A DNA stretch of 39,757 nucleotides from a virus. The notes beneath the pieces are model-generated. The model ran no database searches. It was not told the DNA's origin and saw only the letters and a list, made by a program, of their open reading frames with translations. The DNA lies in the IMG/VR virus record IMGVR_UViG_3300032326_000659, positions 1-39,757 of that record; one strand, 5' to 3'. Position 1 is the first letter of the stretch. The number at the start of each line of letters is the position of its first letter. Made by a program: the position numbers and the translations under genes. Positions 1-38,201 of this stretch are shown one piece after another.

Positions 1-169
1 CCTTATACGGGTTATCCCACGCCATAGTGCCATCGTCATACATGATCCCATTGCCACCCACTACGGTGCTAGTCAAGTATTCGGGTATCGCCCATACAGT
101 ATTGGGGCGGGTGGATTCCCATTCAAGGATCCAATTCCCTACCCTTTTCAATGTCACTGTCGTATCCAT
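1..169 (-). CDS. Small phage protein, cut by the left edge
   Basis: The protein starts at the ATG at 169, behind a GGGAGAAC ribosome-binding site, and reads 56 residues (MDTTVTLKRVGNWILEW...) before the window edge. It is rich in Trp and Tyr, with no signal peptide or membrane segment, and I cannot assign a function. Its start overlaps the stop of the upstream gene as TAATG, so it belongs to the leftward operon. If position 1 were joined to 39757 the frame would stop after six more codons, so the gene is either about 62 residues long or truncated by the window. Confidence 0.7.
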   Translation of the reverse strand, partial: MDTTVTLKRVGNWILEWESTRPNTVWAIPEYLTSTVVGGNGIMYDDGTMAWDNPYK

Positions 170-324
170 TATTGTTCTCCCATTTCTGTCATAGTTTCCG
201 TTCCGTCACCATTGAGAACGATACGCATATCTGTATAGATAACTATCTGCCCGTCGTTATCTTCTCCTAGTGTGGCGTTAGGGCATAGCCCAATAATTTT
301 ATTTAGTAGCTCATGTGTAGTCAT
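169..324 (-). CDS. Hypothetical 51-residue acidic protein
   Basis: A short reading frame (MTTHELLNKIIGLCPN...) begins at 324 behind a good CTAGGAGAT ribosome-binding site. Its stop overlaps the next start as TAATG, which supports translation. The pattern of an N-terminal helix followed by a probable beta-strand (GQIVIYTDMRIVL) suggests a small folded domain. No catalytic or metal-binding pattern is visible. Function unknown. Confidence 0.65.
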   Translation of the reverse strand: MTTHELLNKIIGLCPNATLGEDNDGQIVIYTDMRIVLNGDGTETMTEMGEQ

Positions 325-333
325 TGTTATCTC

Positions 334-522
334 CTAGTCTCTTACGATCTGATCGCCGTATTGGTCAATGAATAGCTCGATGCTCTCATTCACCGTGTAA
401 AAGTGATAGGTCACACTCTTGAAGTACGCCCCATACCCGTCATGTGGGTTGAGTAATGCCGTAACAATTACCGCCCCGCTATGTGGAACTACTTCCACTG
501 TTACTAATTCCTTAGTATCCAT
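334..522 (-). CDS. Hypothetical 62-residue protein
   Basis: I chose the ATG at 522 (MDTKELVTVEVV...) over an in-frame ATG at 546, because 522 has a GAGGGAAAT site just upstream and 546 lies inside a hairpin. Alternating hydrophobic residues suggest a mostly beta protein with a C-terminal helix. The leader before it contains ACAACAGAAGAGGGAAA, which resembles the leaders of the exonuclease gene at 31346 and the SSB gene at 35874. Function unknown. Confidence 0.65.
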   Translation of the reverse strand: MDTKELVTVEVVPHSGAVIVTALLNPHDGYGAYFKSVTYHFYTVNESIELFIDQYGDQIVRD

Positions 523-541
523 ATTTCCCTCTTCTGTTGTA

Positions 542-563
542 ATCACCCCACCATTAGGGTGAT
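542..563 (-). other. Stem-loop after tRNA-like element A
   Basis: On the minus strand this is a 7-bp stem (ATCACCC / GGGTGAT) with an 8-nt loop, starting three bases (ACT) after the 3' strand of tRNA-like element A. It lacks a U-run, so a classic terminator is unlikely. It lies just ahead of the ribosome-binding site of the 334-522 gene, where it could protect a processed 5' end. A matching stem-loop follows element B at 1509-1528. Confidence 0.6.
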
Positions 564-566
564 AGT

Positions 567-615
567 GGACTAGCCAGGAATCGAACCTAGCGATGGTAGC
601 CGCCCTACCTAGCCC
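567..615 (-). ncRNA. tRNA-like element A (acceptor, 13-nt hairpin, T-arm)
   Basis: Read on the minus strand, GGGCTAG pairs with CTAGTCC as a 7-bp acceptor-like stem (one G-U). Inside is a 13-nt hairpin with a 4-bp stem (GTAG/CTAC) and GGCGG loop, a 5-nt linker, and a T-arm with stem CTAGG/CCTGG and T-loop TTCGATT. The T-stem is directly contiguous with the acceptor strand, as in tRNA. There is no anticodon arm and no encoded CCA; the next bases are ACT. It lies 7 nt after the stop of the 623-793 gene. Elements B and C share the design with different but compensating stem sequences. Confidence 0.7.
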
Positions 616-622
616 GTTCCCG

Positions 623-793
623 TTATCGACGGGAATATTCCGTAAGGAATCGCACTCCTACCCGTTCCGCTAATTCTGATAATTCGCTATCGGACATAGG
701 GTTGAGATCATCGCTAATGTCATTCTCATCGATGACATAACAATATTCCGCACTAATCATCGTGCCCGTTTGGGTGTCAATAATGTATTTCAT
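623..793 (-). CDS. Hypothetical 56-residue acidic protein
   Basis: The frame starts at the ATG at 793 behind AAAAGGAAAC and ends at 623. The sequence (MKYIIDTQTGTMISAEY...) is acidic in the middle (DENDISDDLNP) and ends in a basic tail (EYSRR). It probably forms a beta-hairpin followed by a helix. It follows the clamp gene by 14 nt and is followed by tRNA-like element A. I do not recognise the family. Confidence 0.65.
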   Translation of the reverse strand: MKYIIDTQTGTMISAEYCYVIDENDISDDLNPMSDSELSELAERVGVRFLTEYSRR

Positions 794-807
794 GTTTCCT
801 TTTCCTA

Positions 808-1422
808 TTAGCGGGCGTATGTTTCGTTACGGCACGGCATAATCACGCCCGTGAATTGAATACCTTTACTATCGGCAGTGATCCGCCCCGCCTTGCAAGT
901 GTTCAACGATTCAACGGTGACAAGGTTACTGTCTCCCGCACACAGTGTGGCGGCAGTGACAATATCGGTGAAATACTTACCGTTCAATAATACGCCCGAT
1001 TCGTTATCGTGCTTATCGGCAAGGATAGAACCCACCGGCGGAAAATAAATATCCGCACACATTACTTTCACGGTGCTATTCTGCCCCGACACTTTCACAC
1101 TGTGGCACGGATCGGGTTGCTCATAACCGTATGACAGTGACACGGTAGGTTCAAGCTTACTGGCGGCCTTAGCGATATCTGCTAATGCCTTGCAAAGTTC
1201 CTTGCCTTGTACGGTGAACGGATTAGTGGGGCGATCCCCGTAGGAATCCACTGCAATACTGAACGCTATGTATCCGTTAGTGGCAGTGAAAGTTAGCACC
1301 CCGTCAATGTCGGCAACCTGCACATAGGTCAAGTGTTGCCGCCCCGTATTAGTTTTCTCTAATGCTAACGGTAACGCCTTAGCGATAACCTTAGCGGTAG
1401 CTGTATCTATTTGTAGTTTCAT
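808..1422 (-). CDS. DNA sliding clamp-like protein (beta-clamp family)
   Basis: This 204-residue protein is likely a processivity clamp that encircles DNA and tethers polymerase. Clamp-like features are the segment FTATNGYIAFSIAVD near residue 50, matching the family pattern of an ATDG-type turn followed by a strand, and the C-terminal GVIMPCR, close to the VMPMRL end of bacterial beta clamps. Bacterial clamps have three domains and about 370 residues. This one would hold fewer than two full domains, so it may assemble as a higher-order ring or be a reduced form. The start at 1422 has an AAAGGGAAAC site. No polymerase gene is visible, so it may work with the host enzyme. Confidence 0.6.
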   Translation of the reverse strand: MKLQIDTATAKVIAKALPLALEKTNTGRQHLTYVQVADIDGVLTFTATNGYIAFSIAVDSYGDRPTNPFTVQGKELCKALADIAKAASKLEPTVSLSYGYEQPDPCHSVKVSGQNSTVKVMCADIYFPPVGSILADKHDNESGVLLNGKYFTDIVTAATLCAGDSNLVTVESLNTCKAGRITADSKGIQFTGVIMPCRNETYAR

Positions 1423-1438
1423 GTTTCCCTTTCATGTT

Positions 1439-1452
1439 GGGCGTTCTCGCCC
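1439..1452 (-). other. Small hairpin in the clamp leader
   Basis: A perfect 5-bp stem (GGGCG/CGCCC) with a 4-nt AGAA loop lies just before the ribosome-binding site of the clamp gene. It may stabilise the mRNA 5' end; no U-run follows. Confidence 0.4.
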
Positions 1453-1461
1453 TATTGCTAA

Positions 1462-1490
1462 CCGTAATACACATTCCTGGAGCTTGTCAA
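1462..1490 (-). promoter_or_regulatory. Possible leftward promoter before the clamp gene
   Basis: A consensus -35 box TTGACA (1485-1490, minus strand) sits about 60 nt upstream of the clamp start. The -10 is weak: TATTAC at 15-nt spacing or TACGGT at 18-nt spacing. It lies in a short gap just after the stem-loop of tRNA-like element B. Confidence 0.35.
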
Positions 1491-1508
1491 GTAATCTGTT
1501 CTACGTTC

Positions 1509-1528
1509 TCACCCCATCGCTAGGGTGA
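1509..1528 (-). other. Stem-loop after tRNA-like element B
   Basis: The minus strand forms a 6-bp stem (TCACCC/GGGTGA) with an 8-nt loop, separated from tRNA-like element B by ACTA. The stem is identical to that following element A, and the loops begin alike (TAATGGTG versus TAGCGATG). Confidence 0.55.
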
Positions 1529-1532
1529 TAGT

Positions 1533-1580
1533 GGGCTAGTCGGGAATTGCACCCGCTACGGCGACTATTTCGCCTAGCCC
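1533..1580 (-). ncRNA. tRNA-like element B (acceptor, 13-nt hairpin, T-arm)
   Basis: On the minus strand GGGCTAG pairs perfectly with CTAGCCC (7 bp). Inside lie a 13-nt hairpin (GCGA/TCGC, loop AATAG), a 4-nt linker and a T-arm (GCGGG/CCCGA, one G-A mismatch, T-loop TGCAATT). The 3' acceptor strand continues as ACTATCACCC into the stem-loop at 1509-1528. It begins 6 nt after the stop of the 1587-1832 gene. There is no anticodon arm. Confidence 0.65.
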
Positions 1581-1586
1581 CGTCAC

Positions 1587-1832
1587 TTATTGGGTGACAA
1601 GTACGGCGGCGGCGTATCGGTTGCCGCCTAATGGATCGCCACAAAAAGCACACGGCAACCAAGAAAAATAGGGTTCCGTATCGTCACTATGTGGCTCCCC
1701 GCCCCATTCATTCACGCCCCGTCGATAGCGTTCACCGTGTCCCGTGTCGGCGTAACCGTCATAACTTGGCGTACCGCTAGCGGCTAAGTAAATGCAATCT
1801 GGACACACGCCCCCTATATGTTCTACTTTCAT
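1587..1832 (-). CDS. Small Cys-containing protein, possible zinc ribbon
   Basis: I place the start at the ATG at 1832 (MKVEHIGGVCPDCIYL...), because the upstream in-frame ATG at 1847 overlaps the AAAGGGGA ribosome-binding site. The 81-residue protein has two CxxC knuckles, CPDC near residue 10 and CAFC near residue 62, a usual arrangement for a structural zinc site. Between them is a Gly/Tyr/Glu-rich stretch. It lies between tRNA-like elements C and B. Function unknown; nucleic-acid or protein binding would fit a zinc ribbon. Confidence 0.7.
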   Translation of the reverse strand: MKVEHIGGVCPDCIYLAASGTPSYDGYADTGHGERYRRGVNEWGGEPHSDDTEPYFSWLPCAFCGDPLGGNRYAAAVLVTQ

Positions 1833-1852
1833 ATGTTCCCCTTTCAAGGATA

Positions 1853-1873
1853 ACCCGCCCCCTATGGGTGGGT
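1853..1873 (-). other. Imperfect stem-loop after tRNA-like element C
   Basis: On the minus strand ACCCACC can pair with GGCGGGT except for one A-C mismatch. It begins right after the ACT that follows element C and precedes the ribosome-binding site of the 1587-1832 gene. The position matches the stem-loops after elements A and B, but the pairing is weaker. Confidence 0.35.
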
Positions 1874-1875
1874 AG

Positions 1876-1923
1876 TGGGTAGTCGGGACTCGAACCCGAC
1901 AAGGCCACCGCCTGGCCTACCCC
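1876..1923 (-). ncRNA. tRNA-like element C (acceptor, 13-nt hairpin, T-arm)
   Basis: On the minus strand GGGTAG pairs with CTACCC (6 bp, plus a terminal G opposite A). A 13-nt hairpin follows (GCCA/TGGC, loop GGCGG), then a 4-nt linker and a T-arm with stem TCGGG/CCCGA and canonical T-loop TTCGAGT. The fourth acceptor pair is flipped relative to elements A and B (G-C instead of C-G), and the hairpin stem is entirely different yet still paired. The element lies between the 1941-2318 and 1587-1832 genes and lacks an anticodon arm. Confidence 0.7.
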
Positions 1924-1940
1924 GCTAGTCGATTTATTCG

Positions 1941-2318
1941 CTAGCCCCGTTCTGCCTTAGCAAGCTCAAGGCCTGCCACTAGCCCACTTAGCGCACGATA
2001 CGCCTCTACCTTAGTAGTCCCCAAGAATCCACTACCCAAGCGGAACGGGTCATATTCTGCCGTGCCGTAATGGGTGCCACCCGTAGCGTTCAACCGCCAC
2101 GCCTGGCCGTAGGTAGGGCTGCCTTGTTGTAGTACGGCGTGCGGGAACCGATAGACAGAATCCGCCAAGTGTGCGGGGATAGGGCCACGCTCGATGAATG
2201 TCCCCTTGCCTGTCACGGGGCTATCTATAGTCCATTCATCCCCCTTGTATATGCCTAGCTCCCTGGCTAGTCCGTCGATTCTCTTCACGAGAACCTGTAT
2301 ATCTTTTAGTGTTGCCAT
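1941..2318 (-). CDS. Hypothetical 125-residue protein, first gene of the leftward operon
   Basis: The start at 2318 follows a GAAAGGGG site and a strong promoter at 2363-2391, making this the first gene of the leftward operon. The N-terminus (MATLKDIQVLVKRIDGLARELG) looks like an amphipathic helix. The middle is Gly/Tyr/Thr-rich and the end (KVEAYRALSGLVAGLELAKAERG) is helical. There are no cysteines and no catalytic pattern that I recognise. A host-takeover role would fit its place but is speculation. Confidence 0.65.
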   Translation of the reverse strand: MATLKDIQVLVKRIDGLARELGIYKGDEWTIDSPVTGKGTFIERGPIPAHLADSVYRFPHAVLQQGSPTYGQAWRLNATGGTHYGTAEYDPFRLGSGFLGTTKVEAYRALSGLVAGLELAKAERG

Positions 2319-36275: not shown

Positions 36276-38023
36276 TGCGGGTACTCTCGCTGTTTTCGGG
36301 GGTCGGCGGGTTTGATATGGGGCTGGAAGCAGCAGGTATGACCACTGTTTTCCAATGCGAAATAGATAAACACGCACGATCCGTACTTGACTATCACTGG
36401 CCTGATGTTCCGAAATGGGATGATGTATCCACCCTCACAGGGGCACACATCCTAGAAACAACAGGCGGTGTTGACCTAGTGGCGTGGGGTTCCCCATGTC
36501 AAGACCTGTCGCTCGCAGGGAAACGAGCAGGACTATCCGGTGACCGATCCGGTTTATTCCATGAAGGTATCCGCATCATCAAAGAATTAAGAGAGTTAAG
36601 TAATGGAAAATATCCATCCTGGTCTATTTGGGAGAACGTCGTGGGAGCCTTATCTTCCAACCGAGGTGCCGACTTCGGGGAAGTCCTCTACGAAATGGAT
36701 GAAGCAGGGGCGTGTTTCTCGGAGTGGACAGTCTTGGATGCTCAATACTTCGGAGTGCCCCAGCGACGGAGGCGGGTCTTCGTCTCGTCTTGTTTTGATT
36801 CTTCAGTCAGCGAACGATGTGGATCCCCGCTTTTTCCTGTCTCCGAAAGCTTGCGAGGGGATTCTTCGCAGGGCATCGAGACGGGGAAAGCAGTTACCCG
36901 AAAGACTCAGGATCGCATTGGAACAGGTGGTGAACTCGCCTCAGGGAAAGATGTAGCAAACACGATTAGTGCTTCGTTGTATCATAAATCCACTGTTGTT
37001 AATCAGGATGTGAACAACGGTCATTTAGTTATTGAGCCGGTTTTGATGAGGCAACGAGAAGGTAAACCAGGTGGCGGTAAAGGCCCGTTGCTGTCGGATT
37101 CTTCTTTGACTTTGGCTAGAGCAAACGACCAAACCCTTTTCCAACCTGTGACTTTTTCTAAGTCTCGTAGAGCGCAATCTTCTACTGATGTGGAAACCTG
37201 GGTGGAGTCTGATGTGACCCCCACTTTGAATGTGTTTGATGTTGGTGACACACGTGCTACTACAGCAATCATTGAACCGGTTCTTGCTTTTGATACACAG
37301 TTCGGTTCTAACGCCAATGTGTTTGAGGATCAGTCTCCTACTTTGAAATCTTCACAGCAGTCACCATCAGTCACACAGTCGGTGGCGTATTCAATAAGGG
37401 AAGATGCGAAAGCAGGAAACTTTTCTGCTACTGAGATAGAAACAGCACGGGCGTTACAGGCTTTACAGCCATCGGTGCAGTCTCATCATGCTCAAACATT
37501 CATCACTCAAGAAACAGATGTTGTAGGTCCGTTAGCAGCACGAGATTATAAAGGTGTTGGTAATCAGTATGTTGCCGAAAACAAACTAGTCACCCAAGAA
37601 TCCCCAATGTTGATTGATGGTCGCCGTGTCGATGATGTGCGGGTATATACCGAACCTGTACAAACATTGCAGGAACGTATGGGTACAGGTGGTAACAATG
37701 TCCCTGTCGTAGCCCAAGAAACCCAAGCAATTTCCTACGATGGATACAACCAAACCATTGAAGAAGAAATACACAGACCGTGGCGGATTGGCAAAGACTC
37801 AGGTGACTTCATCGCAGACCTACGCCCCGCCACACTCGTGGTACGCCGGTTGACACCACTTGAATGTGAACGACTAATGGGATGGCCCGACAACCACACC
37901 GCCATCGGCACCAACGGACCTATCTCCGACACACAACGATTCAAAATGTGTGGCAACGGAGTAGCAAGCCCTGTAGCAACTTGGATAGCGGGACATCTTC
38001 CCGCCCCAACGCTAAATGGCTAA
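36275..38023 (+). CDS. C5 DNA cytosine methyltransferase with expanded target-recognition region
   Basis: A 582-residue enzyme with motif I LFSGVGGFDMGLEAAG (6-21), catalytic GSPCQDLS near residue 75, ENV near 118, QRRRRVF near 165, and the C-terminal GNGVASPVATW near 560. About 350 residues separate motif VIII from the C-terminal motifs, much longer than in monospecific enzymes. That stretch shows repeated elements such as TPTL, SPTL, SLTL and EPV. The insert suggests several target-recognition segments, as in multispecific phage methyltransferases. No partner restriction enzyme is visible, so protection from host restriction is the likely use. Confidence 0.9.
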   Translation: MRVLSLFSGVGGFDMGLEAAGMTTVFQCEIDKHARSVLDYHWPDVPKWDDVSTLTGAHILETTGGVDLVAWGSPCQDLSLAGKRAGLSGDRSGLFHEGIRIIKELRELSNGKYPSWSIWENVVGALSSNRGADFGEVLYEMDEAGACFSEWTVLDAQYFGVPQRRRRVFVSSCFDSSVSERCGSPLFPVSESLRGDSSQGIETGKAVTRKTQDRIGTGGELASGKDVANTISASLYHKSTVVNQDVNNGHLVIEPVLMRQREGKPGGGKGPLLSDSSLTLARANDQTLFQPVTFSKSRRAQSSTDVETWVESDVTPTLNVFDVGDTRATTAIIEPVLAFDTQFGSNANVFEDQSPTLKSSQQSPSVTQSVAYSIREDAKAGNFSATEIETARALQALQPSVQSHHAQTFITQETDVVGPLAARDYKGVGNQYVAENKLVTQESPMLIDGRRVDDVRVYTEPVQTLQERMGTGGNNVPVVAQETQAISYDGYNQTIEEEIHRPWRIGKDSGDFIADLRPATLVVRRLTPLECERLMGWPDNHTAIGTNGPISDTQRFKMCGNGVASPVATWIAGHLPAPTLNG

Positions 38024-38201
38024 ACGAAAACGAGTCACAGCAGCTGAATGGATAGACCTCAACCCCTATCCAAATCAGCGAAGTTGTGACCATTGTGGCA
38101 CCGTTGAACGGGCACTTACCATTTGGGATTCGACAATAGAAAACACCTGCCCGTGTGCGTGTCACTGGGCTAGAAGATACAACAAAGAAAACAAGAAATG
38201 A
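38016..38201 (+). CDS. Small Cys/His protein (61 residues)
   Basis: It overlaps the methyltransferase end and the WhiB start. Residues 23-52 (SCDHCGTVERALTIW... CPCACHWARRYN) hold CxxC and CxCxxH groups that can form a zinc finger, flanked by basic ends (MAKRKRVT, YNKENKK). A nucleic-acid binding or helper role to the neighbouring WhiB is possible; not recognised. Confidence 0.6.
   Translation: MAKRKRVTAAEWIDLNPYPNQRSCDHCGTVERALTIWDSTIENTCPCACHWARRYNKENKK

Follow-up and report, generated by a model that had tools for sequence, protein, structure and literature searches.

The window analyzed here is a virus record of 39,757 bp, taken at its full length, in which the structural genes are read rightward and a leftward operon occupies positions 1-2318. 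In its direction of transcription, this minus-strand operon comprises an ORF of 125 aa without a family match (1941..2318), element E3 (1876-1923), an ORF at 1587..1832, element E2 (1533-1580), an ORF of 204 aa (808..1422) with weak PHROG matches to a RusA-like resolvase and a polymerase processivity factor, a small ORF of 56 aa (623..793), element E1 (567-615) and a further ORF (334..522). Whole-region searches detected no match between the window DNA and named phages, and two operon proteins used as queries returned a near-identical contig as their sole match.

An earlier note on this DNA had described E1-E3 as tRNA-like structures lying from a few to 17 nt past stop codons, and both their coordinates and their fold were reproduced by RNAfold and by a helix scan. 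E1 starts 7 nt past the TAA (623-625) that ends the small ORF, E2 starts 6 nt past a TAA (1587-1589), and E3 starts about 17-18 nt past a TAG (1941-1943). The tRNA-like fold is the minimum free energy structure of all three (z of -2.7, -3.1 and -1.8 for E1, E2 and E3, respectively), and E1-E3 were the only matches when both strands of the 39.8 kb were scanned for an acceptor plus T-arm helix. They share a 6-7 bp acceptor, a hairpin with a 4-bp stem and five loop nucleotides, then 4-5 nt of linker, and a T-arm whose 7-nt loop closes a stem joined directly to the acceptor. E1 has a 12-bp acceptor/T stack, a D-arm GTAG-GGCGG-CTAC and the T-loop TTCGATT; E2 has the acceptor GGGCTAG/CTAGCCC, the D-arm GCGA-AATAG-TCGC and the T-loop TGCAATT; and E3 has an 11-bp stack (1877..1922), the D-arm GCCA-GGCGG-TGGC and the T-loop TTCGAGT. 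Stem sequences thus differ while pairing is kept, and acceptor pair 4 is flipped, being C4-G in E1 and E2 and G4-C in E3, as had been noted before. Since the loop of the 13-nt hairpin ends in GG (E1 and E3) or AG (E2), this hairpin is a D-arm; within the elements, AG is combined with TGC in the T-loop of E2 (the A18/G55 elbow form), and GG with TTC in those of E1 and E3.

Each element is followed by an ACTA tail corresponding to positions 73-76 of a tRNA-like end (minus strand, 563..566, 1529..1532 and 1873..1876 for E1, E2 and E3). The ACT continuation reported in the earlier note is therefore present in all three, but the motif of the tail is AC-N-A rather than ACT alone, as the wider set of elements described below indicates. 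A second hairpin begins 3-4 nt past each element (542..563, 1509..1528 and 1853..1873, minus strand), and a further one spans the stop codon upstream of each (617..635, 1582..1598 and 1924..1945, minus strand). The next ATG lies exactly 44 nt beyond the element after both E1 and E3. A TTGACA hexamer resembling a -35 box is found at 1485-1490 on the minus strand, past E2 and its hairpin.

Via the terminase, 80 related contigs were collected, over which a covariance model seeded with five elements was run, a check that the earlier note had suggested. The family was recovered in related phages, with about 30 further elements and E-values down to 4e-13; all confident matches belong to the leftward operon, on the strand opposite to the terminase. 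Within this clade, the elements occur in forms of about 48 nt with a D-arm (type A), 47 nt with a short D-arm (type B) and 45 nt (type C), the last having an 11-nt insert, no D-stem and a tail that is mostly ACCA. The A18-G19/G55 elbow is common to E2 and most of the 45-nt form. Pairs were counted on gapless or near-gapless subsets, because the MAFFT alignments A1 and A2 mis-register the acceptor. In types A-C, 98.7-100% of cells conform to the structures, and double changes are far above shuffled and slid controls: in type B, 100% of cells are paired, with 33 double-change cells against 8.7 in shuffled alignments and 36-54% paired cells in slid controls, and stem covariation in types A and C is comparable. 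A hairpin at the stop codon (z < -1) accompanies 33% of clade elements versus 11% of control windows.

Rare longer elements with an extra arm are also present in the clade, and such an arm occupies the place of an anticodon arm at L023:3112-3174, L066:2374-2437 and, in Mycobacterium phage Cuke (L564), at about 37973-38095. Together with the strongly tRNA-like T-arms, the extra arm in some relatives (L023, L066 and Cuke) could suggest that the elements are ordinary tRNA genes that decayed and lost their anticodon arm, a reading that the earlier note had said would undo its own. However, ARAGORN detected no tRNA gene in 30 related loci, and each genome carries numerous elements in which pairing, elbow, tail and position are all preserved. 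Moreover, the L054 and L066 loci share the same upstream gene and only L066 has the extra arm, so that this arm looks optional rather than ancestral debris; decay from tRNAs is thus very improbable.

When positions 18-19 of the D-loop were tabulated against position 55 of the T-loop, with the T-loop left free except for C56, 97 elements had GG/T, none GG/G, one AG/T and 13 AG/G (Fisher 5e-16, a value that overstates independence, as related sequences are counted separately; even so, the two combinations come from 44 and 10 contigs). Both combinations are found inside single contigs in three cases (L476, L513 and L551). The covariation is absent in type B, the 47-nt form, in which the T-loops TTCGCCA and AGCGACA have only C56 in common. 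Because D-loop and T-loop covary (G18G19/U55, A18G19/G55), the tRNA elbow is under selection, and the compensatory 18:55 change is the strongest evidence from these comparisons that the elements adopt a tRNA-like fold in three dimensions.

Although the elements had been presented as a three-member family confined to one phage, the family is present in many phages. At least 155 distinct 11-bp elements were identified in at least 83 contigs. Most elements beyond the clade of the window were found by sequence patterns carrying the consensus T-loop, and the diversity of the class is therefore underestimated. A pattern of T-arm plus ACTA yielded about 65 IMG/VR contigs with a contiguous stack among the 120 matches listed. 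In the pattern GGTT-N6-8-GGTTCGATTCC-N9-ACGA, which leaves acceptor pairing unconstrained, 55 of 60 viral matches had a full stack of at least 11 bp, and in 40 of these 55 the first base lies no more than about 20 nt from where an ORF ends. Across 84,980 cellular genomes, this pattern matched ten times, with the stack present in only three cases, all of them in Glycomyces; as far as this set reaches, the class is nearly restricted to mobile elements. A search of a plasmid collection gave no match. The Glycomyces loci (L576, L567 and L572) hold two or three elements each; those of L576 are near pSAM2-type RepSA and FtsK genes and hence are probably in an integrative element. Another pattern, AGGGNGACNAGCAGAC, was dropped as too loose, most of its matches arising by chance.

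The commonest forms are 39-40 nt long, with a 5-6 bp acceptor, a 10-11 nt insert (AAYGGTTnnn or ACYGGCAGACA), a 5-6 bp T-stem, the T-loop TTCGANT and the tail A-C-N-A. Of 125 elements that the search patterns did not fix, 95 have a stack of 11 bp, and 86 of 93 pattern-derived elements carry GG where it is expected in the insert, compared with 27% of shuffled inserts. A73 and C74 are strongly conserved, and G or T prevails at position 75, which was partly fixed by the search patterns. Tail statistics are to some extent biased by these patterns, and unseeded figures are given where possible: the tails of unseeded 11-bp elements read ACGA in 23 cases and ACCA, ACGC and ACTA in eight each. Among T-arm matches, a short-insert stack accompanied 57 of 134 with ACGA and 29 of 110 with ACTA, exceeding the three of 94 with the control AGTA, which indicates that the AC-N-A tail is part of the motif. 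That no 11-bp element has a T at position -1 was discarded as evidence, since such a T would pair with A73 and, by definition, extend the helix to 12 bp.

Being GC-rich and located where genes end, the stems might also be chance inverted repeats or ordinary terminators. Contigs fetched by pattern (2.16 Mb) contain 64 short-insert elements, some of which are the pattern's own matches while 37 listed ones are not, against 0-4 (mean 1.6) in shuffled sequence; these counts, the missing U run after the elements and the covariation refute that explanation. The sequence comparisons demonstrate a selected tRNA-like fold, with an acceptor/T stack of usually 11 bp, an elbow and an A-C-N-A end, and no anticodon arm.

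Among the 155 elements listed, 103 start 1-20 nt past the stop of an ORF of at least 40 codons, with a peak of 57 at 7-9 nt, whereas 8% of random positions are equally close to a stop. A hairpin of at least 5 bp directly follows 52% of elements (60% of the stop-adjacent ones) versus 8% of shuffled sequences. ORFs were called mechanically except in two annotated phages, Cuke (NC_048696) and Streptomyces phage Amela (NC_028904), and the independent annotation of these two gives the same layout: a stop codon, a spacer of about 8 nt, the element with its ACNA tail, a hairpin, the ribosome site and the start codon. Between 30.0 and 39.0 kb of Cuke, about a dozen gaps contain an element, and Amela has about seven in a leftward operon; in both, elements occupy many of the larger gaps of one operon, each next to a different gene. 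Elements were also found in Mycobacterium phages Fowlmouth and Predator and in L548 (78,296 bp), and a blastn search with L488 as the query aligned 111 actinophage records along short stretches that would fit the elements. The genomic layouts establish that elements lie just past stop codons, often followed by a hairpin and the ribosome site of the next gene, and that several occur per genome with unrelated gene neighbors.

In the window (1-2318, minus strand), L563 and L564, elements lie in operons of small non-structural genes, and the structural genes of the same phage yielded none. In L120, L185, L583 and L600, the hairpin after the element is a near-identical TTGACAC-N4-GTGTCAA present in several copies per genome, and a TTGACA hexamer resembling a -35 box is also found past element and hairpin in L057, L061, L016 and L071. 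An unannotated tRNA-like element of 61 nt, with a longer insert and an ACTA tail, was observed in the M. abscessus phage phiGD24-3 (L326:9787-9847) and also in the related prophages L136, L147 and L160.

A gap of 7-9 nt past the stop corresponds approximately to the leading edge of a terminating ribosome. This spacing, and the second hairpin that then follows, would suit a cis barrier that works without cleavage, in which the fold stops post-termination ribosomes or 3'-5' exonucleases and insulates neighboring genes. A plain hairpin would suffice for this purpose, however, and the selected G19-C56 and 18:55 contacts together with A73-C74 point instead to a reader of tRNA shape. The cis barrier is the main rival to excision of the elements, although we consider it rather unlikely.

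Next in line are excised RNAs of 40-50 nt acting in trans, as decoys for tRNA-handling enzymes, tRNA-targeting defenses, SmpB or T-boxes. A fold kept without an anticodon, the several copies per genome and the resemblance of all forms to the tRNA-like domain of tmRNA, likewise without an anticodon arm, speak for such a role, as does a non-coding array in a 67-kb viral contig. This array (L186:7380-9037, plus strand) is a gene-free tandem arrangement of about 12 mini-tRNA-like units approximately 118 nt apart, each preceded by a hairpin with the loop TGTGAA, which resembles a His (GUG) anticodon loop; possibly, it is an array of non-coding RNAs. On the other hand, a free RNA needs no tight coupling to stop codons and intercistronic gaps, and RNAs without an anticodon would be unable to mimic the targets of anticodon nucleases, which makes a trans-acting role in general doubtful and somewhat less plausible again than the cis barrier.

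We lean, with modest confidence, towards a reading of the elements as intercistronic mini-tRNA signals, a form of tRNA punctuation, that would be excised by host RNase P and RNase Z. The earlier suggestion of a processing signal is in part supported, being consistent with the intercistronic placement, with an elbow that is intact and with A73-C74 at the end. During transcription of the operon, host RNase P, guided by elbow, helix stack and A73-C74, would cut at the 5' side, and RNase Z would cut after A73, releasing the element as an RNA of roughly 40-50 nt. The upstream mRNA would then end a few nt past its stop codon, often in a hairpin, and the downstream mRNA would begin with CNA and a hairpin 3-4 nt in, which should make it resistant to 5'-end-dependent decay. 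In E. coli, a 5'-terminal hairpin stabilizes mRNA. The predicted outcome is that one operon transcript becomes separately stable single-gene mRNAs, as in mitochondria with real tRNAs.

RNase P measures the acceptor/T stack from the elbow to the 3' end and pairs with positions 73-75 (D73-C74-C75) (PMC4919913, PMC11143913), and RNase Z clamps the elbow, with CCA as its main anti-determinant (PMC4919913). Because CCA blocks RNase Z, a tail of A-C-[G/T/A]-A would keep two RNase P contacts without that block. Against excision stand the stack of usually 11 bp, one below that of tRNA (7+5), the ACCA end of the 11-nt-insert form in the clade of the window, which should resist RNase Z, and the L186 array, in which no genes lie between the elements. 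Moreover, some downstream genes seem to bear a promoter of their own directly past the element (TTGACA in L057, L061, L016 and after E2), so that the cistrons on either side of an element do not always belong to a single transcript.

The structural evidence extends to one tertiary base pair, which is unusually strong for a class that matched no Rfam family and for which no paper was found. The earlier note named no described phage family with this layout, and neither an Rfam family nor, among the open-licence papers searched, a description of the mini-tRNA class was found. In our judgment the chances are evenly poised that this is an undescribed, widespread class of anticodon-less mini-tRNAs through which host tRNA-maturation enzymes would cut phage operon mRNAs into stable single-gene mRNAs. 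If so, it would account for the contents of many gaps between cistrons in phages like Cuke, offer phages a general route to split operon mRNAs using host enzymes, and represent a bacterial-virus counterpart of mitochondrial tRNA punctuation; the tRNA-shaped RNAs of approximately 40 nt would be natural minimal substrates and possible parts for RNA engineering. As phages of M. smegmatis and Streptomyces carry elements, the idea is testable at once.

Several known systems can be compared with these elements. They share with tRNA the acceptor/T stack and the D-loop/T-loop elbow, as stem and 18:55 covariation indicates, and differ from the complete cloverleaf, since 46-49 nt leave no room for an anticodon arm. 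ARAGORN predicted neither tRNA nor tmRNA in the window, and Rfam tRNA was not among the matches of the elements up to E=10. The tRNA-like domain of tmRNA likewise consists of acceptor and T-arm without an anticodon arm but belongs to a long RNA that also contains a reading frame for the tag, and no such frame or pseudoknots were detected by ARAGORN or Rfam. Intrinsic terminators, defined by a GC-rich hairpin plus a U run, were not seen in the sequences after the hairpins. When the window and ten more loci were scanned with Rfam, no family matched; among the best scores below threshold, SpF41_sRNA (RF02435) reached 22.4 bits against a gathering threshold of 52, and mascRNA-menRNA (RF01684), the best tRNA-like Rfam score for E3, 15.4 bits against 42.5. 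mascRNA and menRNA, which are excised by RNase P and RNase Z, resemble the phage elements in having an acceptor, a short D-like arm and a T-arm but are products of eukaryotic nuclear lncRNAs and not intercistronic.

Repeats in the intergenic gaps of actinophages, SAS/ESAS among them, are already known (PMC3203893, PMC7302621), but the published accounts are of 17-bp inverted repeats and a start-site motif, not of tRNA-like structures, and a scan of TM4 (24.0-52.8 kb), an SAS/ESAS carrier, revealed no element of the mini-tRNA class. Phage transcripts cleaved by host RNase P include C4 antisense RNA, M3 RNA and T4 gene 32 mRNA (PMC11143913); these are individual cases, in contrast to the repeated punctuation module here, for which cleavage is putative. 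In plant mitochondria and in Haloferax 5S rRNA, t-elements are tRNA-like non-tRNAs that serve as processing signals (PMC8003010, PMC4326828), and the phage elements are similarly non-tRNA, tRNA-like structures between genes. Compared by description, t-elements are reported from particular sites in organelles or archaea, whereas the phage class is multi-copy, typically located 7-9 nt past stops, and combines a stack of 11 bp with an A-C-N-A end and, in many cases, a hairpin on the 3' side. In mitochondrial tRNA punctuation, according to the account of Ojala et al. 1981 given in PMC8003010, tRNAs lie between reading frames and RNase P and RNase Z free mRNAs with very short UTRs. The punctuating units there are functional tRNAs, while the phage elements have no anticodon arm, mostly no CCA and a putative cleavage, but in both systems tRNA-shaped units are placed between reading frames.
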